This document shows, one piece after another, positions 6,151 through 58,449 of a stretch of DNA of 58,449 bases (positions are counted from its first letter, which is position 1; each line of letters begins with the position of its first letter). Both the position numbers and the translations under genes were made by a program. Below the pieces are notes generated by a model, which saw only the letters and a program-made list of their open reading frames with translations, made no database searches and was not told where the DNA came from. The DNA lies in NCBI GenBank assembly GCA_017455525.1, contig JAFTAP010000076.1, positions 1-58,449 on the forward strand. Direction: 5' to 3'. The DNA is from Lachnospiraceae bacterium (GTDB lineage: Bacteria; Bacillota; Clostridia; Lachnospirales; Lachnospiraceae).

Positions 6151-6193
6151 ATTATACTATAGGATATTGATTTTTATCAAAAAATCAATATCC
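6151..6193. promoter_or_regulatory. Divergent promoter region with FNR/CRP-type box inside a larger palindrome
   Basis: TTGATTTTTATCAA at 6167-6180 matches the FNR consensus TTGAT-N4-ATCAA exactly. It sits inside a larger perfect inverted repeat with 14-base arms (6162-6175 and 6180-6193). On the minus strand, TATAAT (6151-6156) with TTGATA 18 bases upstream would drive the NUDIX gene. On the plus strand, TATACT (6153-6158) would drive the flavin reductase gene, with a start point near 6165. The box overlaps the minus -35 and the plus start point, a position that suggests repression of both. Regulator identity is inferred from the motif. Confidence 0.6.
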
Positions 6194-6224
6194 GTATATG
6201 TAAAACCAAAAAGGGGGTATCAAT

Positions 6225-8447: not shown

Positions 8448-8506
8448 TAGCGTATTTACGCTATTTTTGACTTCAACATGGTATGATTGAAACTACTTTT
8501 TGTCAA
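8448..8506 (-). promoter_or_regulatory. BMP gene promoter with downstream palindrome
   Basis: On the minus strand TTGACA (8501-8506) is followed at 17 bases by TACCAT (8478-8483). The -35 overlaps the end of the thymidine kinase gene. A 16-base perfect palindrome, TAGCGTATTTACGCTA read on the plus strand (8448-8463), lies 8 to 23 bases after the expected start point. It could be an operator or a small leader hairpin. Confidence 0.65.
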
Positions 8507-9081
8507 GTGGCATTAAGTCCCAGCTTACCCTCCTTGAAATGCCTCCGGCAAAGTGATATATAGCTTTCATTCGCGCCTATGAAGACCTGCTCGCCTTCCC
8601 TGACTATCTTACCGTCAGCAATACGGGCGTTGAAGTGCGCCCTCTTTCCGCACCAGCAGACCGTAGGGATCTCTTCTATCTTATCCGCAAGCTCCATAAG
8701 CCTCATCGAACCTGGAAAAAGGACGCTTGCAAAATCAGTACGCAGTCCATAACAGATGACAGGCACTCCGCCATAATCCACTATGTCCGAGAATCTCTCC
8801 ACCTGCTCCGCCGTAAGGAACTGTGCTTCATCCACGATTATGGCATCGATTTCGCTCCAATCTTTTTTATTCTCAGTGCGCTCTAAGAATTCCTCGACAA
8901 ACTCACACGGATACTCAAGTCCCATCCTTGATTTCACGACTTTCTCGCCATCCCTGTTGTCGAGCATAGGCTTTAAAAGGATAGCATTCTTACCCTTCTC
9001 CTCGTAGTTATATCTCACCATAAGCGCATTGGCAGTCTTAGACGAGCCCATAGCTCCATATCTGAAATAAAGCTTTGACAT
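8503..9081 (-). CDS. tdk: Thymidine kinase
   Basis: A 192-residue type II thymidine kinase, phosphorylating thymidine to TMP in nucleoside salvage. The P-loop GAMGSSKT is at residues 9-16, the Walker B-like IIVDEAQFL near residues 84-92, and the lasso-region zinc cysteines appear as VCWCGKRAHFNAR near 141-153 with a final CRRHFK near the C-terminus. The length is usual for the family. It sits directly upstream of the BMP lipoprotein gene, so uptake and salvage of nucleosides are encoded side by side. No ribosome site conflicts with the chosen ATG. Confidence 0.95.
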   Translation of the reverse strand: MSKLYFRYGAMGSSKTANALMVRYNYEEKGKNAILLKPMLDNRDGEKVVKSRMGLEYPCEFVEEFLERTENKKDWSEIDAIIVDEAQFLTAEQVERFSDIVDYGGVPVICYGLRTDFASVLFPGSMRLMELADKIEEIPTVCWCGKRAHFNARIADGKIVREGEQVFIGANESYISLCRRHFKEGKLGLNAT

Positions 9082-9105
9082 ATTTTCTCCCTATTTTACG
9101 ACTTT

Positions 9106-9220
9106 CAGAACGCAAATAGAAAATGCGTTCTGAAATTCTGCGTTCCGCAGAACACGCCGACCGGCATGCCGGTCGGCTGGTCAAATACGATAACTGATTT
9201 TTTTATAAAAATCAGTTATC
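9106..9220. repeat. Hairpin array A (four consecutive inverted repeats)
   Basis: Four back-to-back inverted repeats fill the space between the lipoprotein gene and tdk. The arms are CAGAACGCA/TGCGTTCTG (9106-9132), TTCTGCG/CGCAGAA with a 3-base loop (9136-9152), the unbroken palindrome 9156-9177 built on GCCGACCGGC, and GATAACTGAT-type arms at 9189-9220. The last overlaps the stop codon of the 9212 gene. Read on the minus strand, the linker after the first hairpin is GTATTTGACC, like the linker in arrays C and D. Confidence 0.8.
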
Positions 9221-9880
9221 TATACAATCACACTTAGTATAGAACCCTTCATTAAGTATGTCCTGCAATGACATGGAACCATCGAATACCACTATCGTAT
9301 CGTATCCAAGCTCGCTAAAATGCGGCCCGTCCACCCTGTGCAGAAGGTTTGTCTCAGAATCTCCCACGAACTCCCCGAAGATAGCTGCATCGGGATATAT
9401 CTCCCTAAGCCCGTCAATTACCTCCGGATGTGAGTACAAAGCCTCATTCACTGCCTCCGCCGATATTATCCTGCCGTCAGGTATGCCTGCACCGCCACCA
9501 CTTGAAGCATCAGCTTCCGAAGGCTCTGAGCCCTCGCCCAGAACCTCAGCATCCGTAGAGCTGCCGTCAGCCTCCTCCTCTGATGCATTGTTTTCAGAAG
9601 GGCTGTCTGCTTCTTCTTCATACGAAACGGATTCATCATCCTCGTCATCTGATTCAGACGAAATCAAAGAAGGCAGGGCACTCCTTGTTGTCTGTTCAGA
9701 ATCATCATCTTCTCCGTCCGCCCCTGTCTCTGTCTCTGCAGTCTCTCCGCCCGCAGCCTCAATACCTGCGGCATACCCCTCATCATAACCGCGCTGATAA
9801 GGCGGCTTATAATTACACCCGCTAAGGAATAAGGCAGCTGATAAAGCATATACGATTGTAATGACAGTTTTCGTATGCAT
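9212..9880 (-). CDS. Acidic lipoprotein of unknown function
   Basis: A 222-residue exported lipoprotein that I cannot assign to a family. The signal peptide ends in LSGC with Cys22 as the lipid-attachment site. Residues 28-34 read YQRGYDEGYAAG, a repeat-like Tyr/Gly pattern. Residues 40-135 are extremely rich in Asp, Glu and Ser and are probably disordered. The C-terminal 90 residues look folded (ISAEAVNEALYSHPEVIDGL, then GYDTIVVFDGSMSLQDIL) and end with a Cys-x-Cys pair. The stop codon lies inside the first hairpin of array A. It follows the EAL protein by 45 bases and may be cotranscribed with it. Confidence 0.8.
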   Translation of the reverse strand: MHTKTVITIVYALSAALFLSGCNYKPPYQRGYDEGYAAGIEAAGGETAETETGADGEDDDSEQTTRSALPSLISSESDDEDDESVSYEEEADSPSENNASEEEADGSSTDAEVLGEGSEPSEADASSGGGAGIPDGRIISAEAVNEALYSHPEVIDGLREIYPDAAIFGEFVGDSETNLLHRVDGPHFSELGYDTIVVFDGSMSLQDILNEGFYTKCDCIDN

Positions 9881-21607: not shown

Positions 21608-21750
21608 TGATGCGCATAGCGCATCAAAGCGCATCCATAAAACATCCACTGGATGTTTTACCATGTCTGTGCAGGTCATTCAGTGCCAAATCGAATTGTG
21701 CAAGCACATTCGGTTTGGCATCGCATGACCTTTGGGTATCATATACCAAA
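21608..21750. repeat. Hairpin array B
   Basis: Consecutive inverted repeats fill the gap between the last polysaccharide gene and minC. They are TGATGCGC/GCGCATCA (21608-21626), TAAAACATCC/GGATGTTTTA with a 3-base loop (21638-21660), a nested long hairpin bounded by AGGTCAT and ATGACCT (21673-21731) with inner arms TGCCAAA/TTTGGCA and TGTG/CACA, and a bulged repeat TTTGGGTAT/ATACCAAA (21731-21750). The rest of the 284-base gap shows no gene. Confidence 0.8.
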
Positions 21751-30637: not shown

Positions 30638-32020
30638 TTACTTAATAAGCACATCTAAATCCACTCTCCCGTTTATTCCGTCCACGCTTCCGCTTGACGT
30701 ATACTGCCATATACTGTAGTCGCCATCATAGGTCGGTCCTTCCGCCCTGTATTGCGCAAGCCACTTCGTATACGGTGCAAGAGAGGACATATCAAGCCTG
30801 TTAGTCATCCATGTCTTGTTCGCATACACCCCTGCACTGTAGCCGAGATTTTCCGCTGTCTCACAGAAGGTACGGACGACCTCGGTTCTTGTCACAGTAT
30901 CAAGAAGATCGGCCCGCCCCCCGTTTACATTCCCGGAGCTCTCCACATCAAGGAATACCGGAAGCGACAGATCAGACGCATTCACAAGCGACGCAACCGC
31001 CTCCGCTTCCTCCCTTGCTTCATCGGGGTTCACCGCCTGCGTGAAGAAATAAACCCCTATCCGCATCCCGGCAGCCTTTGCTCCGGCAAGATTCTGTCTG
31101 AAATACGGATCTTCTACAAGTACGCCTGTAGAGGATCCGCGGTATCCCGCCCTGATTATCGCAAATTCTATACCGGACGAGCGTACTCTGTTCCAGTCTA
31201 TTTCTTTATTATACTTGGATACATCTATACCGAGAGTTCCCTGCGGAAGCGCTATGTCTGCAGGGCTTTCCGTTCCCTCGCCCTCACTCTCCGCCTCGTC
31301 TTCCTTCTCATCAGGCGTAGATGCTGTATCCTCGACAGCCGCATCGATGTCAGACTCCTGCATGACTATGCTCCTTATCCCTGCGGACGCCGTATACCTT
31401 ATCTTGGGCTTTATGGTAATAGAAGATGCCTCAACTATACCGGAACCGTTATCCACTACTACATCATAGCTTCCGGGGCTCATTTCATCCAGATAAATGA
31501 TGCCGTCCTCATCATCGTCCTCTGCCTCAAACTCATCGACATATTTATTTTCATCATCTGAATCAATATCACCGTCTGAATCAGAGACTTCACCCGCTTC
31601 GTCCGATAATCTCCGGACTTTCGCAACCCAGCTCATATCAGAAGCACCCTTGCCTGTGCTGTCAACCATCTGAATTCTTAAATCTGACTCGCTTGAAGTA
31701 AGAAGGAGCACGTATCCGCCGGAAAGATCCGGCTCATCATCTGCATCGTCATCATAGAAAGACTCATCAAGACCTACAGCCTCTATGTCATCCGACGCTG
31801 AATATGCCTCATCCATGTCGTCATAAGAAATATTCGCAGAACCCGTCGATCCACTTAAGGATGCGCCTGATGCATCCTCAGAAACAGTATTGGTATAATC
31901 CGATGCTCCGCCGCCTCTCTCTCGATTTATGCTTATCGCAAGTATCACGATAAAAGCAAGGCAGTTGAATCCTATTATAAGAGCCGGTATGAGCCATATT
32001 TTGCGATTGCTCTGGCGCAT
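30638..32020 (-). CDS. Membrane-anchored GH25 lysozyme-like protein
   Basis: A 460-residue protein with an N-terminal membrane anchor (residues 9-28), a long acidic Asp/Ser/Glu-rich region to about residue 265, and a GH25 glycoside hydrolase domain from 267 to the end. GH25 enzymes cut the MurNAc-GlcNAc bond of peptidoglycan. The fold shows GIDVSKYNKEIDW, FAIIRAGYRG, GVYFFTQA, LPVFLDVES and a final YSIWQYTSSGSVDGINGRVDLD. The catalytic Asp and Glu are present in GIDVS and LDVE. It sits between rmlA and rmlC and is likely in the same transcript, so wall opening may be linked to polysaccharide export. Confidence 0.93.
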   Translation of the reverse strand: MRQSNRKIWLIPALIIGFNCLAFIVILAISINRERGGGASDYTNTVSEDASGASLSGSTGSANISYDDMDEAYSASDDIEAVGLDESFYDDDADDEPDLSGGYVLLLTSSESDLRIQMVDSTGKGASDMSWVAKVRRLSDEAGEVSDSDGDIDSDDENKYVDEFEAEDDDEDGIIYLDEMSPGSYDVVVDNGSGIVEASSITIKPKIRYTASAGIRSIVMQESDIDAAVEDTASTPDEKEDEAESEGEGTESPADIALPQGTLGIDVSKYNKEIDWNRVRSSGIEFAIIRAGYRGSSTGVLVEDPYFRQNLAGAKAAGMRIGVYFFTQAVNPDEAREEAEAVASLVNASDLSLPVFLDVESSGNVNGGRADLLDTVTRTEVVRTFCETAENLGYSAGVYANKTWMTNRLDMSSLAPYTKWLAQYRAEGPTYDGDYSIWQYTSSGSVDGINGRVDLDVLIK

Positions 32021-32050
32021 GCAAAATTTATTCTCCTCTAATAACAGCCC

Positions 32051-32920
32051 TTACAACCCATTCGCAATATCCTTAAGATACTGTCCGTAAGCCGTTTTAG
32101 ACAGCGGCTCGGAAAGCTTCAAGAGCTGCTCTTTATCTATATAGCCCTTCTTATAAGCTATCTCCTCGATACAGGAAATATAAAGTCCCTGCCTCTTCTG
32201 AAAAGCTGATACGAAGTCCGCCGCATCAAGCAGCATATCATGCGATCCCGTGTCGAGCCATGCGAAGCCCCGTCCCAATGTCTCCACATAAAGGTCACCC
32301 CGACGCAGGTATTCATTATTAACGGAAGTTATCTCTATCTCTCCCCTTGCTGAGGGCTTCACATTGCGGGCTATCTCCACTACATCGTTATCATAGAAAT
32401 AAAGCCCCGGCACTGCGTAGTTGCTCTTCGGATGCTCCGGCTTCTCCTCTATGGATATAGCCTTGCCGTCCTCATCAAACTCAACCACGCCGTATTCCGT
32501 AGGGTCTTTCACATAATATCCGAATATAGTAGCTCCCGTCTCTCTCTCTGCGGCAGCCTTCAAAGTCTTAGAGAAGCTCTGTCCGTAGAAAATATTATCA
32601 CCAAGAACCATAGCGACATTGTCTGAGCCTATGAAATCCGCACCGATAATAAACGCATCGGCAAGCCCTCTCGGTGATTCCTGCACCGCATAGTGCATAT
32701 CAAGCCCAAGCTGAGAGCCGTCTCCGAAAAGCTCCTTAAAGCCCGGCAAGTCACGAGGCGTCGATATTATAAGTATCTCCCTTATTCCCGCAAGCATCAG
32801 CGTGGATAAGGGATAATAAATCATCGGCTTATCATAAACCGGCATCATCTGCTTACTGACCGCCTTTGTAAGCGGATAAAGTCTGGTGCCGGAGCCTCCG
32901 GCGAGTATTATTCCTTTCAT
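32051..32920 (-). CDS. rfbA: Glucose-1-phosphate thymidylyltransferase
   Basis: A 289-residue RmlA, making dTDP-glucose from glucose-1-phosphate and dTTP, the first step of dTDP-rhamnose synthesis. The N-terminal [16 protein letters not shown] signature is complete, with [10 protein letters not shown]-like [31 protein letters not shown] and [12 protein letters not shown] further on. The length is standard. It lies 131 bases downstream of rmlB, a gap filled by hairpin array C. Confidence 0.97.
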
Positions 32921-32957
32921 ACCTAACCTCTCTATAGTTTATCCAATATGCCGTGGG

Positions 32958-33059
32958 TTGATAATCGTGTAAAGGAAACACGATTATCAATCCTACGGAC
33001 AGGATTCTTACGAATCCTGCCAAATACGGATTCGAAATTGCTGATGTAATTTCAAATCC
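32958..33059. repeat. Hairpin array C
   Basis: Three perfect or near-perfect inverted repeats and one mini-hairpin follow each other. They are TTGATAATCGTGT/ACACGATTATCAA (32958-32990), TCC-TAC-GGA (32991-32999), CAGGATTC/GAATCCTG (33000-33019) and a repeat based on GAAATT/AATTTC (33028-33059). The last spans the stop codon of the dehydratase gene. On the minus strand it is followed by GTATTTGG. About 33 of 41 bases at this end match array D. Confidence 0.85.
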
Positions 33060-34131
33060 TATACATCCTCTTATAATAATCCTGATAATCTCCGGAGGTG
33101 ATATTCTCCATCCAGTCAAGATGATCCATGTACCATTTTATCGTAAGCCTTATGCCATCCTCGAACTTCGTATCGGGAAGCCAGCCGAGCTCCTTGCTTA
33201 TCTTATCAGGAGCTATTGCGTATCTCCTGTCGTGTCCTTTTCTATCCTCCACATAGGTAATAAGGTCTTCCGACACGTTCGCCTTCCTCGGATCATCGTT
33301 TGGAAGTATCTCCTGAAGCGTCTTTATTATAGTCTTAACTATCTGTATATTCTCGCGCTCGTTATGTCCGCCGATATTGTATTTCTCGCCTACCCTGCCC
33401 TTTTCTATGACCATGTCTATGCCCTTGCAGTGATCGTCCACATAAAGCCAGTCGCGCACGTTCTTGCCATCGCCGTAGACAGGAAGCTTCTTGCCTGACA
33501 GCGCATTATTTATGATAAGAGGTATCAGCTTCTCCGGAAACTGATACGGTCCGTAGTTATTCGAGCAATTAGTTATGCAGGCAGGAAAATGATAGGTATC
33601 CACATAAGCCTTCACGAGAAAATCCGCCGATGCCTTGCTTGCGGAATACGGTGAGTGCGGATCGTAGGGCGTAGTCTCATAGAAGTAATCCTTAGGGTCG
33701 CTCAGTGAGCCATATACCTCATCCGTAGAAACATGCAGGAATTTCTTCCCGTCCTTAAAGCTCCCACCCTCATTCTCCCATGCCGCCTTAGCCGCATTGA
33801 GCATTACCGCCGTGCCCAGCACATTCGTCTCAACAAAGACTTCCGGATTCACGATCGAGCGATCCACATGACTCTCCGCAGCAAAATGAACCACGACATC
33901 TACATCGTTCTCTGCAAATATCTTCTCTATAGCCTCTTTATTCCTGATATCCGCCTTGATGAAGGTGTAATTCTTCCTGTCCTCTATTCCCTTTAAATTC
34001 TCAAGGTTTCCCGCATAGGTCAGAGCATCCACATTTATAAGCCTGATGTCATCCCCATACTTGCGGAACATATAATAAACAAAATTAGAACCGATAAATC
34101 CGGCGCCGCCTGTAACTAAATAAGTACGCAT
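33052..34131 (-). CDS. rfbB: dTDP-glucose 4,6-dehydratase
   Basis: A 359-residue RmlB of the short-chain dehydrogenase family, converting dTDP-glucose to dTDP-4-keto-6-deoxyglucose. The NAD site TGGAGFIGSNF is at residues 7-17. HFAAESHVDRS, the catalytic STDEVYGSL and the YSASKASADFLV motif with Tyr and Lys are all present. GGAGAT precedes the ATG. It heads the polysaccharide operon, which runs on through rmlA, the GH25 gene, rmlC, wzm and wzt. Its stop codon lies inside the first hairpin of array C. Confidence 0.97.
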   Translation of the reverse strand: MRTYLVTGGAGFIGSNFVYYMFRKYGDDIRLINVDALTYAGNLENLKGIEDRKNYTFIKADIRNKEAIEKIFAENDVDVVVHFAAESHVDRSIVNPEVFVETNVLGTAVMLNAAKAAWENEGGSFKDGKKFLHVSTDEVYGSLSDPKDYFYETTPYDPHSPYSASKASADFLVKAYVDTYHFPACITNCSNNYGPYQFPEKLIPLIINNALSGKKLPVYGDGKNVRDWLYVDDHCKGIDMVIEKGRVGEKYNIGGHNERENIQIVKTIIKTLQEILPNDDPRKANVSEDLITYVEDRKGHDRRYAIAPDKISKELGWLPDTKFEDGIRLTIKWYMDHLDWMENITSGDYQDYYKRMYRI

Positions 34132-34233
34132 ATGATCTCCTTAAGTCTGTGTTTTATCTGATTTTTTATTTTACCACAATTCTACGCTCGGAACTACCTC
34201 GCCAAGGATTGTGATATGACTCGCATAAACGGC

Positions 34234-34905
34234 TCATAAAAAATACAACAATGCATTTACGATCGCCGCGGCTACCGGGCTCCCGCCCTTGTTTCCTTCA
34301 TTTATTATATAAGGTATATCCGTCTTCATGATAAGCTCTTTAGAATGGACGACATTTACGAAGCCAACAGGGGCTCCTATAATAAAATCAGGCTTGAAAA
34401 GTCCTTTAGAATATATATCATATAAACTTATCAAAGCTGTCGGAGCGTTGCCTATCGCAAAGATCATGGGTTTTTCAGGGTTCGCCTCATATAAGCTCAT
34501 CGCCTTTTCCATCGCCACATAAGCTCTAGTAAGCCCTCTTTCTTGTGCCTCCTTCGCCACATCCTCATCCGCCATGAAGCAGTGTACCTGTCCGCCGTGG
34601 CTTTCAAGCTTTTTTTTATTTATCCCCGCAAGCGCCATATTGGTATCAGTAACTATATCGGCGCCCTCACATAATAGTTTTTTTATTATATCAATCGCAT
34701 TGTCAGAAAACCGCAAGGTCCTTGCATAGTCAAAATCCGCCGTCGTATGTATGCAGCGATAAACTATACTGCGGCAGAGCTCCCTTTCCTCATCTGATGC
34801 CGTATCATACTGAGAAGGCACAGATATGCTCCGTGCCTTCAGTTCTTCCTCTATTATCTCGAAGCTCCTTCGCTCGATTTCCTCAGGTCTGATATTTTCT
34901 ATCAT
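34234..34905 (-). CDS. cbiC: Precorrin-8X/cobalt-precorrin-8 methylmutase
   Basis: A 223-residue CbiC/CobH, moving a methyl group from C11 to C12 of the corrin ring to give cobyrinate in cobalamin synthesis. Diagnostic stretches are RSFEIIEEEL near the start, VYRCIHTTADFDYARTLRFS with the catalytic His, DTNMALAGI, and IGNAPTAL followed by GAPVGFVNVVHSK. The length is standard. It overlaps the phosphoglycerate mutase gene by 4 bases, yet no other cobalamin gene is in the window, so this is an isolated pathway gene. A gap of 102 bases separates it from rmlB. Confidence 0.95.
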   Translation of the reverse strand: MIENIRPEEIERRSFEIIEEELKARSISVPSQYDTASDEERELCRSIVYRCIHTTADFDYARTLRFSDNAIDIIKKLLCEGADIVTDTNMALAGINKKKLESHGGQVHCFMADEDVAKEAQERGLTRAYVAMEKAMSLYEANPEKPMIFAIGNAPTALISLYDIYSKGLFKPDFIIGAPVGFVNVVHSKELIMKTDIPYIINEGNKGGSPVAAAIVNALLYFL

Positions 34906-36494
34906 TTCTTAATAAGCAGTGACTCTCCCGTCATCTCTTTTGGCTGGGGCATTTCCATTATCTGTAAGAGCGTCGGCGCTATGTCGCAGAGCTTGCCACC
35001 CTCACGCAGGGTATATGCCGGATCATAATTATATAGAATGAACGGAACAGGATTAGTCGTATGCGCCGTATGAGGCTCACCGGTCTCATAGTTTATCATC
35101 TGCTCTGCGTTTCCGTGATCTGCACAGATAAATAGGACTCCGTTCATCTGCTTCACGGCATCCACTGCGGCGCCTACGCACTGGTCTATCCTCTCGACAG
35201 CCTTTATCGCAGCCTCAAGCACTCCCGTATGCCCTACCATGTCAGGATTTGCGAAGTTGATTATTATCACATCATACTTTCCCGAAGTGATCGCTGCATC
35301 AAGCTTCTCCGATACCTCAGGCGCACTCATCTCAGGCTGCAGATCGTAGGTCGCCACAGCAGGAGAATTAACAAGCGTCCTGTCCTCGCCCTCGTTCGGC
35401 TCCTCTATGCCGCCGTTGAAGAAAAACGTCACGTGAGCGTATTTCTCTGTCTCAGCTATGCGAAGCTGCTTAAGCCCGTTCTTTGCAAGATACTCTCCGA
35501 GCGTATTAACTATCTCTTCCTTCTTGAAAGCGACGTACTTATTCGGGATAGTCTCGTCATAATCCTTGAAGCACACATAGGTCAAAGGCATGAAACCGTT
35601 TGCTCTTTTAAGATATGCTATGGTCTTAGTATCCGAAGGATCTCCGCCCTGGGCTTTGATATCATCATCAGAGAAGCAGAATGCCTTCGTTATCTCCCTC
35701 GCCCTGTCGGGGCGGAAGTTGAAGAATATGATGGAATCATCCGGCTTCACGACCGACACCGGCGATCCGTCCTCATTCGTTATCACGGTAGGCAGGACGA
35801 ACTCGTCCGTCACGTCCTTATCATAGGAATCCTGCATAGCCTGTATCGGATCTGTGGCCTTCACGCCCTCACCGAGTACCAGAGAATCATACGCCTTCTG
35901 TATGCGATCCCAGTTATTGTCCCTGTCCATCGCATAGTAACGGCCTGAAAGAGACGCAACCTTTCCTACGCCTATCTCCTTAGTCTTGTCGATAAGCTCC
36001 TGTAAATAATCCTTACCCGATGCCGGAGGCGTATCCCTTCCGTCAAAGAAAGGATGCAGATACACGTCCTCAAAGTTCTCCCTCTTGCAAAGCTCTAATA
36101 ATCCATACAGATGGGTATTGTGACTATGCACTCCGCCGTCAGAGAGCAGTCCCCAGATATGAAGGTCTGATTTATGCTCCTTACAATTATTTATAGCCCT
36201 CAGAAGCTCCTCGTTCTTGAAGAAGGTGCCCTCCTCTATATATTTCGTGATAAGTGTAAGATCCTGATAAATGATGCGTCCGGAGCCAATATTCATATGC
36301 CCCACCTCGGAGTTACCCATCTGCCCGTCGGGAAGCCCGACCGCAAGCCCCGAGGCATAACCCTTCTGGAAGGGACACTCCGCCATAAGCTTATCCATCA
36401 CCGGCGTCTTAGCCATATACACGGCGTTCGCTTCATGGTTATCCGACAAGCCGTATCCGTCAAGCACCATCATCACTACAGGTTTCTGTCTCAT
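34902..36494 (-). CDS. gpmI: 2,3-bisphosphoglycerate-independent phosphoglycerate mutase
   Basis: A 530-residue iPGM, interconverting 3- and 2-phosphoglycerate in glycolysis with two Mn2+ ions. The alkaline-phosphatase-like N-terminus is MMVLDGYGLSDNHEANAV, the phosphorylated Ser is in QMGNSEVGHMNIGSGR, and HFFDGRDTPP-like PFFDGRDTPPAS and ICADHGNAEQM are all seen. The length is slightly above the usual 510. GGAGGAAG precedes the ATG. It is the first gene of a transcript with cbiC. Confidence 0.97.
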   Translation of the reverse strand: MRQKPVVMMVLDGYGLSDNHEANAVYMAKTPVMDKLMAECPFQKGYASGLAVGLPDGQMGNSEVGHMNIGSGRIIYQDLTLITKYIEEGTFFKNEELLRAINNCKEHKSDLHIWGLLSDGGVHSHNTHLYGLLELCKRENFEDVYLHPFFDGRDTPPASGKDYLQELIDKTKEIGVGKVASLSGRYYAMDRDNNWDRIQKAYDSLVLGEGVKATDPIQAMQDSYDKDVTDEFVLPTVITNEDGSPVSVVKPDDSIIFFNFRPDRAREITKAFCFSDDDIKAQGGDPSDTKTIAYLKRANGFMPLTYVCFKDYDETIPNKYVAFKKEEIVNTLGEYLAKNGLKQLRIAETEKYAHVTFFFNGGIEEPNEGEDRTLVNSPAVATYDLQPEMSAPEVSEKLDAAITSGKYDVIIINFANPDMVGHTGVLEAAIKAVERIDQCVGAAVDAVKQMNGVLFICADHGNAEQMINYETGEPHTAHTTNPVPFILYNYDPAYTLREGGKLCDIAPTLLQIMEMPQPKEMTGESLLIKK

Positions 36495-36535
36495 AATCTT
36501 CCTCCAAATTTATTATTTTACATCAGTTCACTCCG

Positions 36536-36718
36536 TCACGCCGTGACGAACTTTTTTATGCCATCATCATATCGGAATCCCGCTGCTTCAAGCTTATCCT
36601 GTATCTCCTTTGCATCAAAGCCCTCGCTCACAGCCATATCATAAAGATCCTCATACTTATCCCTAAGCCCCATATTTACATAGCTCATAAGCATATTAGC
36701 ATCCCCGGGCAGTGCCAC
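36536..36718 (-). CDS. DUF4250 protein
   Basis: A 60-residue protein of the DUF4250 family, a small helical protein widespread in Clostridia with no known function. The typical features are the start MALPGDANMLMSYVNMGLRD, a Tyr/Asp-rich middle and a final hydrophobic stretch with YDDGIKKF. The start is GTG (36716-36718), supported by AGGAGGAGAG upstream. It lies between gpmI and the flagellin terminator and may have its own promoter in the 190-base gap upstream; the rest of that gap shows only a terminator hairpin. Confidence 0.88.
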   Translation of the reverse strand: MALPGDANMLMSYVNMGLRDKYEDLYDMAVSEGFDAKEIQDKLEAAGFRYDDGIKKFVTA

Positions 36719-36841
36719 CTCTCTCCTCCTATATCATGCGATACTTGTAGCAACGCTTATGATAACATAATTCTAAGCACATGTGAAACCCACTTTATGC
36801 ATATACAACTGTATCATAGAAACTTATCAGTCATAAAAAGA

Positions 36842-36870
36842 GGCTTTCGGATTCATATTCTCCGAAAGCC
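36842..36870 (-). terminator. Rho-independent terminator of the flagellin gene
   Basis: Perfect 10-base stem (GGCTTTCGGA and TCCGAAAGCC) with a 9-base loop. On the minus strand it is followed by CTCTTTTTA, a good terminator tail. Confidence 0.88.
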
Positions 36871-36908
36871 CCGTATCCTATCGTAGTACTTAGGCTTAAA
36901 CAAATATA

Positions 36909-37736
36909 TCAGTGAAGCTGTATATTCTGTAATGCGCCTGCCTGTGCCTGACGATCCTCTCTCTGCCTCTGAGCCGTCTGCTGCTGCGTCTTCTGAAGAA
37001 GCTGCGCCTGCCTGAGCTTCGTGGACTCCTTAGCCATGTCCGTGTCCCTGATCCTTGAATATGAAGCCGTCGTGTTCTCGCTTACGTTGCTGAGATTCCT
37101 TGACGTGGACTCCATCCTGTTGTACTGAGCTCCAAGGTTAGCCCTCTGGCTTGAAAGGCTCTCAAGCGCATCCGAGATAGGCTTAAGCGCCGCCCTTGAT
37201 CCCTCGGCTGTCGAGAGATTTATGCTGCCAAGCCCAAGTGTATCGGTGCTCATGGTCTTCATGCTGACAGCGATCTTATTGCCGGACGAGCCCTCAGCTC
37301 CTGCCTGGATATTAGTGTCGCCATTCTCCAAAACCTTGGTCTCATTGAAAGTCGTGCTGCCGGAAACTCTGTTGATGTCCTGCATGAGCTGGTCTGCCTC
37401 TGCAGTGATGGCGCTGCGGTCATCATCAGAGAGCGTGCCGTTAGAACCCTTGATGGCAAGCTCATTGAGCCTCTGAACCATGTCTCCGACCTCGTTCATA
37501 GCACCGTCTGCCACGTTTGTCATAGACATGCCGTCGCTGACGTTGTCTATTGCCTTATTCATGCCCTCGATCTGCTTCATCATCTTTTCAGAGATCGCAA
37601 GCCCTGCGGCATCATCGCCGCCGTTATTGATCTTATATCCGGATGAGAGCTTCTGCATGCTCTTCTGCTGAACTCTCTGGGTATTCTGCTGCATCCTTGC
37701 GTTATTGAGACCGCTTACATCGTTTCCTATCCTCAT
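36909..37736 (-). CDS. Flagellin, short and divergent at the C-terminus
   Basis: A 275-residue flagellin. The N-terminal D0/D1 region is standard (MRIGNDVSGLNNARMQQN, KLSSGYKINNGGDDAAGLAISEKM), with the usual NQLA-like LNELAIKGSNGTLSDDDR. The central domain is very short. The D1 C-terminal helix is kept (RANLGAQYNRMESTSRNLS and NTTASYSRIRDTDMAKES), but the last 30 residues are Gln/Arg-rich (LLQKTQQQTAQRQREDRQ) rather than the usual Ala/Leu helix ending in a LAQAN-like motif. The ribosome site GGAGTC precedes the ATG. No sigma-28 promoter is seen upstream, which is unusual for the main filament gene; it may be a minor flagellin. Confidence 0.9.
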   Translation of the reverse strand: MRIGNDVSGLNNARMQQNTQRVQQKSMQKLSSGYKINNGGDDAAGLAISEKMMKQIEGMNKAIDNVSDGMSMTNVADGAMNEVGDMVQRLNELAIKGSNGTLSDDDRSAITAEADQLMQDINRVSGSTTFNETKVLENGDTNIQAGAEGSSGNKIAVSMKTMSTDTLGLGSINLSTAEGSRAALKPISDALESLSSQRANLGAQYNRMESTSRNLSNVSENTTASYSRIRDTDMAKESTKLRQAQLLQKTQQQTAQRQREDRQAQAGALQNIQLH

Positions 37737-37743
37737 ATCTGAC

Positions 37744-37780
37744 TCCTTTCATTTATGATGTCAAATTCCAGTTCCAATCC
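37744..37780 (-). promoter_or_regulatory. CsrA-binding-like GGA cluster in the flagellin leader
   Basis: On the minus strand the flagellin mRNA leader has four GGA motifs, at 37778-37780, 37773-37775, 37767-37769 and in the ribosome site at 37744-37746. CsrA binds GGA motifs and in B. subtilis blocks translation of flagellin, relieved by FliW. csrA and fliW are both in this cluster. The binding is inferred. Confidence 0.5.
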
Positions 37781-37829
37781 ATATCACGGAAACTCGCCGT
37801 TCACTATGTTCTGTAAACCGACTACTTTA

Positions 37830-37858
37830 ATAATAACATAGAATATCTGTGTTGAAAA
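37830..37858 (-). promoter_or_regulatory. Possible sigma-A promoter of the flagellin gene
   Basis: On the minus strand TATTAT (37830-37835) has TTTTCA 17 bases upstream (37853-37858). The match is only fair, but no better sigma-28 match was found in the 179-base gap. Confidence 0.35.
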
Positions 37859-37880
37859 GCTTTTTTACAAGCAAAAAACC

Positions 37881-37898
37881 GTACAAAATCAAGTACAA
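37881..37898 (-). repeat. Direct repeat GTACAA-N6-GTACAA upstream of flagellin
   Basis: Two copies of GTACAA 12 bases apart (37881-37886 and 37893-37898) sit about 22 bases upstream of the candidate flagellin -35. The same layout occurs at 48860-48877, upstream of flgM. Confidence 0.5.
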
Positions 37899-37915
37899 TC
37901 CAAGCTAAATCCCGC

Positions 37916-38392
37916 CTATTTCTTGTTGTCAAGAAACATTGAGTCTATCTTATTCATCCGTCTCATGTTAACGGCATAGACATTCGCCGCCTTGACGGAG
38001 CCGCGGCTTTCCTTCAGATTCTGCCTTCGCTTTTTCATGAAATTCTCGAAATTCACCTTTGAACGGGCCTCAATCGCCTCGACCTCGGCGATCTTCTCCG
38101 TGATCTTGCGGATAAGCTCCTGCAGGGTGCGTATCTCTTCCTTGTGAGCGTCCTTTTTCTCTATGAACTCATCACGGACCTTCGCATAGAGAGCCTCGAA
38201 GCCGTCATCCAGCCTGTCAAGCTCCGCAACAAGAGCACCCTTTGCGGTTATATTCGCATTGAGTGCTCCCATATCAGGCTTCTCGCCTGTCATTATCTCT
38301 TCCTGTTCCTTGTCCAGTTCGATCGCCCGATTAAGAAGCTCCAGCTTCTTCTCCTGACTCTCGATCATCATCGTCATGTATGCATCTGACAT
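37916..38392 (-). CDS. Coiled-coil flagellar protein, possible export chaperone
   Basis: A 158-residue protein predicted to be almost fully alpha-helical and coiled coil, with two long charged helices (LELLNRAIELDKEQEEIM and DAHKEEIRTLQELIRKI) and a basic C-terminus ending in MNKIDSMFLDNKK. I cannot place it in a named family. Size and helical makeup recall FliT/FlgN-type export chaperones. It lies between fliS and the flagellin gene on the same strand, and ends in its own gap, which supports a flagellar role. GGAGG precedes the ATG. Confidence 0.75.
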   Translation of the reverse strand: MSDAYMTMMIESQEKKLELLNRAIELDKEQEEIMTGEKPDMGALNANITAKGALVAELDRLDDGFEALYAKVRDEFIEKKDAHKEEIRTLQELIRKITEKIAEVEAIEARSKVNFENFMKKRRQNLKESRGSVKAANVYAVNMRRMNKIDSMFLDNKK

Positions 38393-38437
38393 ATATGCCT
38401 CCCAATATTCAGGAAGTCACGGTATTGCTTCTCTGCC

Positions 38438-38535
38438 TTTTGAGTCGGCTAGAGAAACCGCCTCAAAACCCGCTTTGCGGGTACGCTCCTACGGAGTTAG
38501 ACCAATACGGATCCGAAATTTCTGATGAAATTTCG
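38438..38535. repeat. Hairpin array D
   Basis: Inverted repeats TTTTGAG/CTCAAAA (38438-38468), AACCCGC/GCGGGT (38467-38482), mini-hairpin TCC-TAC-GGA (38487-38495) and CGAAATTTC/GAAATTTCG (38514-38535) fill most of the 147-base gap. The last lies immediately next to the fliS stop codon at 38540-38542 and on the minus strand is followed by GTATTGG, matching array C. Confidence 0.85.
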
Positions 38536-38539
38536 TCTC

Positions 38540-38941
38540 CTAGGCCTGTGCTGCCTCCGGCATTGAGTACTGTCCGGTCTGCTTCATGACTTCCTTCCAT
38601 GTATCCCTGAGGCTTCTCATGTGAGTGATGCACTCGCCTAAGATCTCCGTATCCTTGGCTACGTTCGCCTCATGAAGCCTTCTTAATACATAATCATATA
38701 TGTTATCGAAGTCTTTTGCAACCTCGTACTTGTGGTCAAGAGTCATCTGGAACTCGCCTATGATGCGCTCCGCCTTGCGGATATTCTGGTTAGCTGCCGG
38801 ATAATCCTTTGCATTTATAGCCATGACAGCCATGTTGCAGAACTTTATGCATCCGTCATAGAGCATTAAAGTGAGCTCTGCGGGAGATGCTGTCAATATC
38901 TTGCTGTTCTTATACTGCTGAAATGCTATTGTTGCCTTCAT
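38540..38941 (-). CDS. fliS: Flagellar export chaperone FliS
   Basis: A 133-residue FliS, the cytoplasmic chaperone that binds the C-terminus of flagellin and prevents early assembly. The four-helix bundle core and the family stretch SPAELTLMLYDGCIKFCNMA near residue 20, followed by NQNIRKAERIIGEFQMTLD, are clear. The divergent C-terminus of the local flagellin raises the question whether it is the true client. It is preceded by a 166-base gap after fliD containing a hairpin and a partial sigma-28-like -10 (GCCGATAT). GGAGG lies ahead of the ATG. Confidence 0.94.
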   Translation of the reverse strand: MKATIAFQQYKNSKILTASPAELTLMLYDGCIKFCNMAVMAINAKDYPAANQNIRKAERIIGEFQMTLDHKYEVAKDFDNIYDYVLRRLHEANVAKDTEILGECITHMRSLRDTWKEVMKQTGQYSMPEAAQA

Positions 38942-39004
38942 GATCGTATCCTCCAGTGTGTTAACTAAGTGTTTAATAATTTTTACACTCTATATATCGG
39001 CCGA

Positions 39005-58119: not shown

Positions 58120-58195
58120 TTTATCGTTTTTTATCATTTTCAATATTTTTTATCATTCTTTATCATTTTTAAGAATTTTATCATTCTTTATCATT
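58120..58195 (-). repeat. Three-unit tandem repeat upstream of the ATPase gene
   Basis: Six copies of TTTATCATT (the first reads TTTATCGTT) start at 58120, 58130, 58149, 58159, 58177 and 58187. They form three pairs with 10-base spacing inside each pair and 28 to 29 bases between pairs. A TATAAT on the minus strand (58208-58213) lies just upstream, so the repeats fall in the transcribed leader or operator zone of the ATPase gene. Confidence 0.85.
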
Positions 58196-58207
58196 TTTGT
58201 CTATGGT

Positions 58208-58280: not shown

Positions 58281-58449
58281 AAAATCTGCACGCATGCAGA
58301 TTTTCGGCAATTATAGTAAGCGAAATATGTAATTTCGCTTACTATAAAGCCTCCGGCGGATGCGCTCGGATTTTGTAAGGAAATATGCCGCTTTCAGCGG
58401 CCAAAATCCGACGCAGTAAACGCCAAAACGAAAAGAGTTTTGTCGTTTA
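58281..58449. repeat. Hairpin array E, running to the right edge
   Basis: Consecutive inverted repeats: AAAATCTGCA/TGCAGATTTT (58281-58304), a 16-base perfect stem TTATAGTAAGCGAAAT/ATTTCGCTTACTATAA (58311-58347), TCC-GGC-GGA (58352-58360), CGGATTTTG/CAAAATCCG (58367-58410) enclosing GCCGCT/AGCGGC (58387-58401), and CAAAAC/GTTTTG near 58424-58443. The window ends inside it, so its full length is unknown. No gene is visible here. Confidence 0.8.

Follow-up and report, generated by a model that had tools for sequence, protein, structure and literature searches.

A probable family of structured, non-autonomous mobile elements between the genes of a Lachnospiraceae bacterium

What are the rows of hairpins that lie between genes in a 58,449-base contig of a Lachnospiraceae bacterium? 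An earlier note on this stretch, here called the window (contig 28 of genome G000, which comprises 2.72 Mb in 110 contigs with a completeness of 93.07), had grouped five such rows, lettered A to E along the window, into one family of perfect intergenic hairpins with shared linkers. We find that arrays A, C and D belong to one family of elements of about 105-125 nt, of which B and E are not part. These are probably non-autonomous mobile elements, each with a terminal hairpin and a body closed by a helix (P1), that insert at AT. They work like REP, BOX or ERIC, i.e. as small interspersed bacterial repeats.

Copies across the genome and its relatives

A pattern for the terminal (head) hairpin, GAAATTNCATCAGNAATTTC, with up to three mismatches, matched the own genome 37 times, compared with 3 times for the reversed control. 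Among the 30 loci listed for this pattern, 22 entered sequence sets A1 and A2, five (L004, L008, L015, L017 and L018) were partial by eye, and at least three (L021, L028 and L029) were non-members by eye; sets A3 and A4 were hand-picked by subtype. Two models were used for further searches: R1, built from 16 own-genome copies (array D included, A and C excluded), and R2, built from 25 copies of the subtype that we call c (array A included). R1 returned at least 44 own-genome matches at E<=1 and at least 39 at E<=2.7e-5, both lower bounds because 150 of 778 candidates were scored. Array A is absent from this whole-genome listing, yet R1 found it in a search of the window. The genome thus does hold, as predicted, copies beyond the five arrays.

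The family extends patchily to relatives. A type-c DNA query matched in 19 of 48 genomes of the genus and R1 in 16 of 41, as well as in 2 of 13 genomes in the genus of G142. Across the bacterial family, R1 matched in 3 of 200 genomes and R2 in 4 of 397, these large sets having been searched with strict filters and the own genome counted. Two short patterns found at least 120 and 35 stretches in viral contigs; R1 found none over all 155 at E<=0.1, and we therefore take these pattern matches to be chance. Elements also occur in tandem and head to head, linked through a shared AT, and the head alone is found as a solo copy.

A covarying architecture

On the element strand, a full copy runs from an NTAG start through the head hairpin and a CGTATTTG-like linker into P1, which encloses P2, P3 and P4. 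The head has about 14 pairs and a loop that mostly reads CATCAG or CATCGG; P4 is long and carries a TTCCTT-like loop in types a and b. The three subtypes of this one family differ in P1: type a has a CCT/AGG-like helix, type b has GG/CC or CG/CG, and type c has GAC/GTC. We model the body as a four-way junction of P1 to P4.

Alignments of each subtype show that pairing is preserved by compensatory change while loops and linkers remain constant. In type a (16 sequences), 95.8% of cells are paired and both sides have changed in 22 of 40 pairs; the corresponding values are 91.8% and 29 of 39 for type b (17 sequences), and 98.8% and 29 of 41 for type c (25 sequences). Covariation scores of 0.380, 0.454 and 0.613 (types a, b and c) were reached in none of 500 shuffles each, and a control in which partners were slid by 1-3 columns scored at most 0.142. 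Among the type b sequences, the outermost P1 pair is GC in 10, CG in 6 and UA in 1, and is broken in none; in type a both sides have changed in two of the four P1 pairs. That P1 covaries in these two subtypes speaks for a single closed structure and against a simple row of hairpins. Across genera too, stems differ while loop and layout persist, as seen in the G153 copies and one weak G154 match (31.7 bits). Together, these statistics bear out, genome-wide, the idea of covarying stems set among fixed linkers and loops. Rfam 15 gave no matches in the window; over 7 loci it gave three at E<=1, all below the gathering score.

One orthologous pair of heads from two near-identical genomes, L115 (G247) and L117 (G142), shows such a change directly: a G to T on one arm is accompanied by a C to A at its partner, and the 60 upstream bases are identical. 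This single case fits either selection or hairpin-templated correction.

Stable stems between genes could also be plain intrinsic terminators, or the arrays could be assembly artefacts. Both have next to no probability in our assessment. None of the 11 terminator sites called in 32000-39000 lies inside C or D, in line with the earlier view that these are not plain terminators; copies end in AGG, CC, CG or GTC followed by flanking sequence, with no T tract; one copy separates rpmJ from an rpsM-like start; and the same family appears in independent assemblies.

Near-identical copies, empty sites and a probable target duplication

Recent movement is most evident in G231, whose main contig spans 4.09 Mb. 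This genome carries 11 full-length copies that are 98-100% alike, together with one 5′-truncated copy, one 3′-truncated copy and one solo head, and the flanks of its copies are dissimilar beyond ATAG...GTCA(T). Similarly, G219 has four identical 112-nt type-b copies at different sites, and four 124-nt type-c copies at different sites, three of them identical. Recent near-identical copies occur in both orientations and have AT on both sides.

Two sites reveal the arrangement without the element. For one G231 copy, the same genome holds an uninterrupted paralogue of the left flank, ...AAAAATCT-AT-AAAT; the two flanks of the copy, joined by a single AT, agree with this paralogue at 83 of 85 bases, including four past the AT. 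The second site is the end of fliS, where the window carries a type a element at the stop codon (CAGGCCTAG). We compared this place in 24 loci of relatives retrieved through a FliD query, all labelled Lachnospiraceae and nearly all metagenome-assembled; several come from rumen or other ruminant gut, and one is a scaffold of Lachnospiraceae bacterium AC3007. Neither R1 nor R2 detects an element at fliS in these loci, and the gene end reads CAGGCATAA in 10 of the 24, seven of which are among the 10 whose FliS is 84-88% identical. In G230, the fliS site holds a type c element (CAGGCATAG ... GTCATAAGG; CAGGC-AT-AG...GTC-AT-AAGG), suggesting that two subtypes have inserted at one place. In both comparisons (the G231 paralogue, and G230 fliS against relatives), AT stands once without the element and twice with it, as expected of a target site duplication.

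A search for empty versions of 12 joined sites added further spanned loci. L126 is spanned in G223, G220, G204, G000 and G222 by sequences too diverged for exact limits, and L127 by one match in G257; a comparison of G142 with G247 found site L072 too altered to use. Near-identical copies at different sites, together with relatives' sites that lack the element, indicate that the family is mobile, one of the two roles that had been suggested for the arrays.

Several arrangements around copies are recorded here as separate observations. At one site, G142 has a full element (L066/L475) and G247 a solo inverted head flanked by AT (L473). In G142, a second repeat with TTTCTGGAACACCCACTA-like inverted ends directly follows the element in 9 of 15 fetched loci (L061, L065-L067, L069, L070, L072, L075 and L076), and several contigs of this genome end in or near it. 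We had first read this sequence as a downstream gene; it is a separate repeat with inverted ends, and the two may travel together. The right flank of L129 (G203:C6:22904-23033) likewise holds a repeat of about 95 nt abutting an element copy; several genomes of the genus have matches to this repeat at 86-98%.

Placement between genes and at stop codons

We placed 43 own-genome elements relative to genes, comprising 37 of the 44 R1 matches and 6 of the 17 type-c DNA matches (L452 and L454 through partial matches). Excluded were a contig-end copy (L056), a fragment (C17:21056), array A of the window, the solo head, the weak matches C3, C79, C7:29055, C20:3866 and C77:29283, and also C96:5365, C7:96540 and C89:2631. 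The 80 elements placed in other genomes include G142/G247 orthologous pairs and one 3′-truncated G231 copy. A codon-score gene caller, with the window as its training set, found no element crossed by a called gene (0/43 own, 0/80 other); all 123 lie between called genes, in agreement with the intergenic location noted for the arrays.

Many copies sit directly on a stop codon. The element supplies the in-frame TAG stop of the upstream open reading frame (ORF) in 14 of 43 own-genome cases and 15 of 80 elsewhere, compared with a null of 1.96% (19 of 969; the window's intergenic AT sites, counted in either orientation, together with stops that follow an A), giving p = 6e-14 for the own genome. Within co-directional spacers, the figures are 12 of 24 against a null of 14 of 199 (7%; p = 1.8e-8). 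As its first two bases are AG, an element that inserts behind the T of a stop codon restores TAG, and the excess is therefore explicable by site preference or by selection. The proteins ending at these stops are apparently intact: in 12 of the 14, the match to a family profile comes within 5 positions of the profile end, although for L034 and L004 the match lies below the curated cut-off, and the full-profile proteins include FliS, FtsY, FeoB, DegV, a LacI-type regulator, a permease and a Nim-like protein. The other two are L036 (NuoC-like) and L446. A fifteenth site follows a complete rpmJ, too short for the gene caller, and the start 39 bases past the element is that of a gene which we take to be rpsM.

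The surroundings also bear on whether these are host-maintained RNA elements, that is, intercistronic hairpins selected for mRNA processing or stability and occasionally duplicated. Besides the covariation in all three subtypes, this account gains from the placement of 24 of 43 own copies between two genes on the element's strand, compared with 9 between two on the opposite strand (the remainder being mixed arrangements, 5 and 4, and one with a single neighbour), and from the rpmJ/rpsM-like and fliS sites. G-U pairs also exceed A-C by 18:5 and 35:6, leaning to the sense strand, though 9 and 22 of these fall in one column each. Patchy presence, relatives' sites without the element and near-identical copies in both orientations speak instead for a parasite, and the 9 own copies on the opposite strand are antisense to both neighbours. 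We consider a host-maintained RNA doubtful as the main explanation, and covariation alone is no proof of host RNA function. Under the mobile reading, which we favor, hairpins that come to be transcribed in operons would probably affect mRNA processing or stability, either as a by-product or after later recruitment.

Candidate mobilizing enzymes

A MITE (miniature inverted-repeat transposable element) of the DDE type, e.g. related to IS630/Tc1, offers a second account of the mobility, in which the transposase of an insertion sequence (IS) cuts short inverted ends, the AT or TA is the target duplication and the hairpins are passengers. The 2-bp AT (or TA, if shifted by one base) at both ends agrees with this, as do the type b ends, which look partly alike in inverse orientation by eye, and DDE_3 genes occur in G203 and G219, both of which have identical or near-identical copies. 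Across 48 genomes, however, DDE_3 (PF13358) was found in 5, namely 2 of 22 with elements (by R1 or type-c DNA) and 3 of 26 without (p = 1.0), and not in G000, G230, G217, G234 or G231. Ten DDE_3 loci gave no R1 match at E<=10, and three of them no R2 match either; the ends of the G203 IS630 differ from the element ends; no longer element with the same ends was detected in G231 at E<=1; and inverted repeats are not evident by eye at type a and c ends. IS630 as the mover is thus unsupported by the genome and model searches, and we regard the DDE-type account as unlikely.

The earlier note had suggested looking for a RAYT-type transposase. A REP/REPIN-type element moved by such a Y1 enzyme on single-stranded hairpins would explain the TAG foot beside a hairpin, the intergenic location and the supply of stops, all of which GTAG REPs share according to PMC3733652. 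Of the 41 genomes surveyed in the genus, 20 carry genes of the Y1 family, and such genes occur in G231, G219 and G203, which have recent copies. No Y1_Tnp gene (PF01797) was found in the own genome, however, nor in G230, G217 or G234. Y1 genes also do not track the elements. When genomes are divided by R1 matches, Y1 is found in 6 of the 16 that have them and in 14 of the 25 others (Fisher p 0.34); when type-c DNA matches are counted as well, the figures are 7 of 19 and 13 of 22 (p 0.21). The tested Y1 loci contain no R1 or R2 match (R2 on part of them), and by eye the hairpins and ends of the G231 IS200 look unrelated to those of the elements. We therefore rejected Y1/RAYT as the general mover after Y1 searches, model searches of Y1 loci and inspection of hairpins in eight longer-Y1 (RAYT-like) loci.

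The foot tag also departs from that of REPs. ATAG stands at the start of 14 and GTAG of 5 of 29 own copies, and of 35 and 3, respectively, of 55 others. With the GTAG tag of REPs (which may also be CGTC) in a minority of copies, no RAYT association found in the Y1 searches, and an element far longer than 20-40 bp, a REP/REPIN origin is very improbable, in accord with the note's remark that this is not a known REP.

In a search for an autonomous copy by all-against-all blastn of 109 loci, the only flanks seen more than once belonged to overlapping or syntenic loci or to the second repeat of G142. No mobilizing enzyme was found in searches that covered Y1 and IS630 (DDE_3) rather than other transposases or reverse transcriptases. 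For our preferred reading, a mobile element inserting at AT, we suppose that an enzyme acting in trans would recognize the folded strand (single-stranded DNA or a cruciform, possibly RNA); a long terminal inverted repeat need not be assumed. Recognition of this kind would leave stems free to vary while the shape stays constant. A fuller version, which we put forward tentatively, is a minimal mobile element consisting of a folded four-way junction and a head, recognized as a structure by its enzyme, making a 2-bp AT duplication and docking on stop codons by rebuilding TAG, with arms kept matched by selection or hairpin-templated correction as they drift between species.

A number of observations weigh against the preferred reading. 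Since no mobilizing enzyme was found, movement as a folded strand stays conjectural, and the type b ends appear by eye to be partly inverted, a feature that a DDE transposase requires. Evidence for the AT duplication comes from two sites, where the match continues for 2-4 bases past the right-hand AT, and many of the genomes compared are fragmentary. On the structural side, copies are related, so shuffles overstate their independence; for further pair types in type c, 38 of 500 shuffles do as well. The invariant P1 of type c offers no covariation evidence, and in type b only 83.8% of P4 cells are paired. A host-selected RNA function could equally maintain the structure. As to placement, genes broken by an element would be invisible to our count, as the break itself ends the ORF; the young G231 copies supply a TAG stop in only 2 of 12 cases (p = 0.02); the stop null comes from a single 58 kb window and assumes uniform AT insertion; and selection against insertion in short spacers could cause much of the TAG excess.

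Relation to known repeats

The habit of supplying stops is already known from GTAG REPs. According to PMC3733652, these often furnish neighboring ORFs with their TAG stop and are found chiefly where the ORFs on either side are unidirectional or convergent; like the elements here, they are intergenic hairpins with a TAG foot. The present elements differ from GTAG REPs and REPINs in being 105-125 nt with further helices rather than 20-40 bp, in having ATAG more often than GTAG, in lacking an own-genome Y1 gene and in being flanked by AT at either end.

BOX elements of Streptococcus pneumoniae are likewise modular, dispersed and non-autonomous, are predicted to fold into stem-loops (PMC3049150) and are found in clusters (PMC10969869). 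Judged by description only, they differ in their boxA-boxB(n)-boxC modules, with boxB variable in number, compared with the fixed number of helices in full copies here. BOX is further distinguished by terminal inverted repeats and by ISSpn2, an IS proposed for it, neither of which is established for the present family, and occurs in streptococci rather than Lachnospiraceae.

ERIC/IRU, RUP and NEMIS/Correia-type MITEs duplicate TA, a short AT-type target duplication like the one seen here. The ends of our elements are not paired into one long hairpin as in ERIC/Correia-type repeats; a separate hairpin stands at each end, and the body forms a closed junction. Palindromic elements derived from IS200/IS605 have hairpins near their ends and no long inverted repeat, and resemble ours in this; the difference lies in the AT on both sides and in Y1 genes that do not track the elements. 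The MITE groups are alike in further ways, being about 100-150 bp, non-autonomous, intergenic and often near gene ends (in part PMC10969869, which also describes prokaryotic MITEs as mostly intergenic, able to cluster and able to alter mRNA stability).

The unusual features of the present family are its closed covarying junction, the freedom of its stems and the lack of a mover among Y1 and IS630 enzymes. No description of it was found among the papers listed in literature searches that exclude most subscription journals; within that coverage, a group of gut bacteria gains a small mobile element that is structured and was recently active. It raises the question of what moves an element of 105-125 nt whose ends are poorly conserved and whose fold is kept, and its stop-codon hairpins at fliS, ftsY, feoB and rpmJ constitute a natural experiment on effects on expression.

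Elements in the window

Arrays A, C and D are all minus-strand copies of the family, at the positions given in the earlier note but with slightly wider limits. Array D is a type a element at 38435..38543 (R1 104.5 bits, R2 54.1 bits, type a covariation), between fliS (38540-38941; identified by Pfam and NCBIfam) and a FlgN-like gene (37916-38392; match below cut-off). It consists of the head hairpin, the linker CGTATT, P1 (GTCT/AGGC), P2 holding TCCGTAGGA, P3 and P4, and the fliS stop codon is the TAG at its 5′ end. Array C is a type b element at 32955..33062 (R1 59.8 bits, R2 54.1 bits, type b covariation), between an rmlB-like gene (33052-34131) and an rmlA-like gene (32051-32920), both named after Pfam families. 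Here the head and the linker CGTATTT are followed by P1 (GG/CC), P2 (CAGGATTC/GAATCCTG), P3 (TCCGTAGGA) and a P4 with the loop TTCCTT, and the TGA stop of the rmlB-like gene sits inside the head.

C and D do share head and linker in sequence, as had been noticed. The TCC-N3-GGA motif of B and E gives no ground for kinship; it is the P3 mini-hairpin in C and part of P2 in D. The description of the hairpins as perfect is roughly right, with mismatches in the head and P4 of D.

Array A is a type c element at 9100..9223 (R2 123.6 bits, R1 66.9 bits, type c covariation), between an ORF that matches no Pfam family (9212-9880) and a gene for thymidine kinase (8503-9081; Pfam). Its layout is head hairpin, linker CGTATTTG, P1 (GAC/GTC), P2, P3 and P4. 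In all three elements the stop of the upstream gene falls within the first 12 nt (TAG in D, TGA in C and A).

On the plus strand, a solo type-c head hairpin lies at 6157..6197, with 90% identity to positions 1-41 of the type-c DNA query and an R2 score of 42.2 bits; R1 gives a head-only match of 31.3 bits at 6159-6206. It is flanked by CTATA ... GTAT. We considered it as the head of an autonomous copy and rejected this, as a flavin-reductase-like gene (by sequence and Pfam) follows instead.

The two remaining arrays stand apart. With default filters and a cut-off of E<=10, neither R1 nor R2 matches array B (21608-21750). This array lies between minC and a glycosyltransferase gene and contains several long hairpins; three of its strings have no second copy among the loci fetched. 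For array E (58281-58449), which is truncated by the contig end, the best match is only 13.9 bits (E 0.17), with R2. E contains the palindrome TATA-GTAAGCGAAAT...ATTTCGCTTAC-TATA, which is similar to GTAAACGACATT, an inverted end carried by one IS630 copy of G203. An 11-base core of it recurs in locus L131 of G203 and, perhaps by chance, in two viral-contig loci; from this likeness, array E is possibly a separate IS630-type palindrome. A run of TTTATCATT-like repeats lies beside it, at about 58128-58200.

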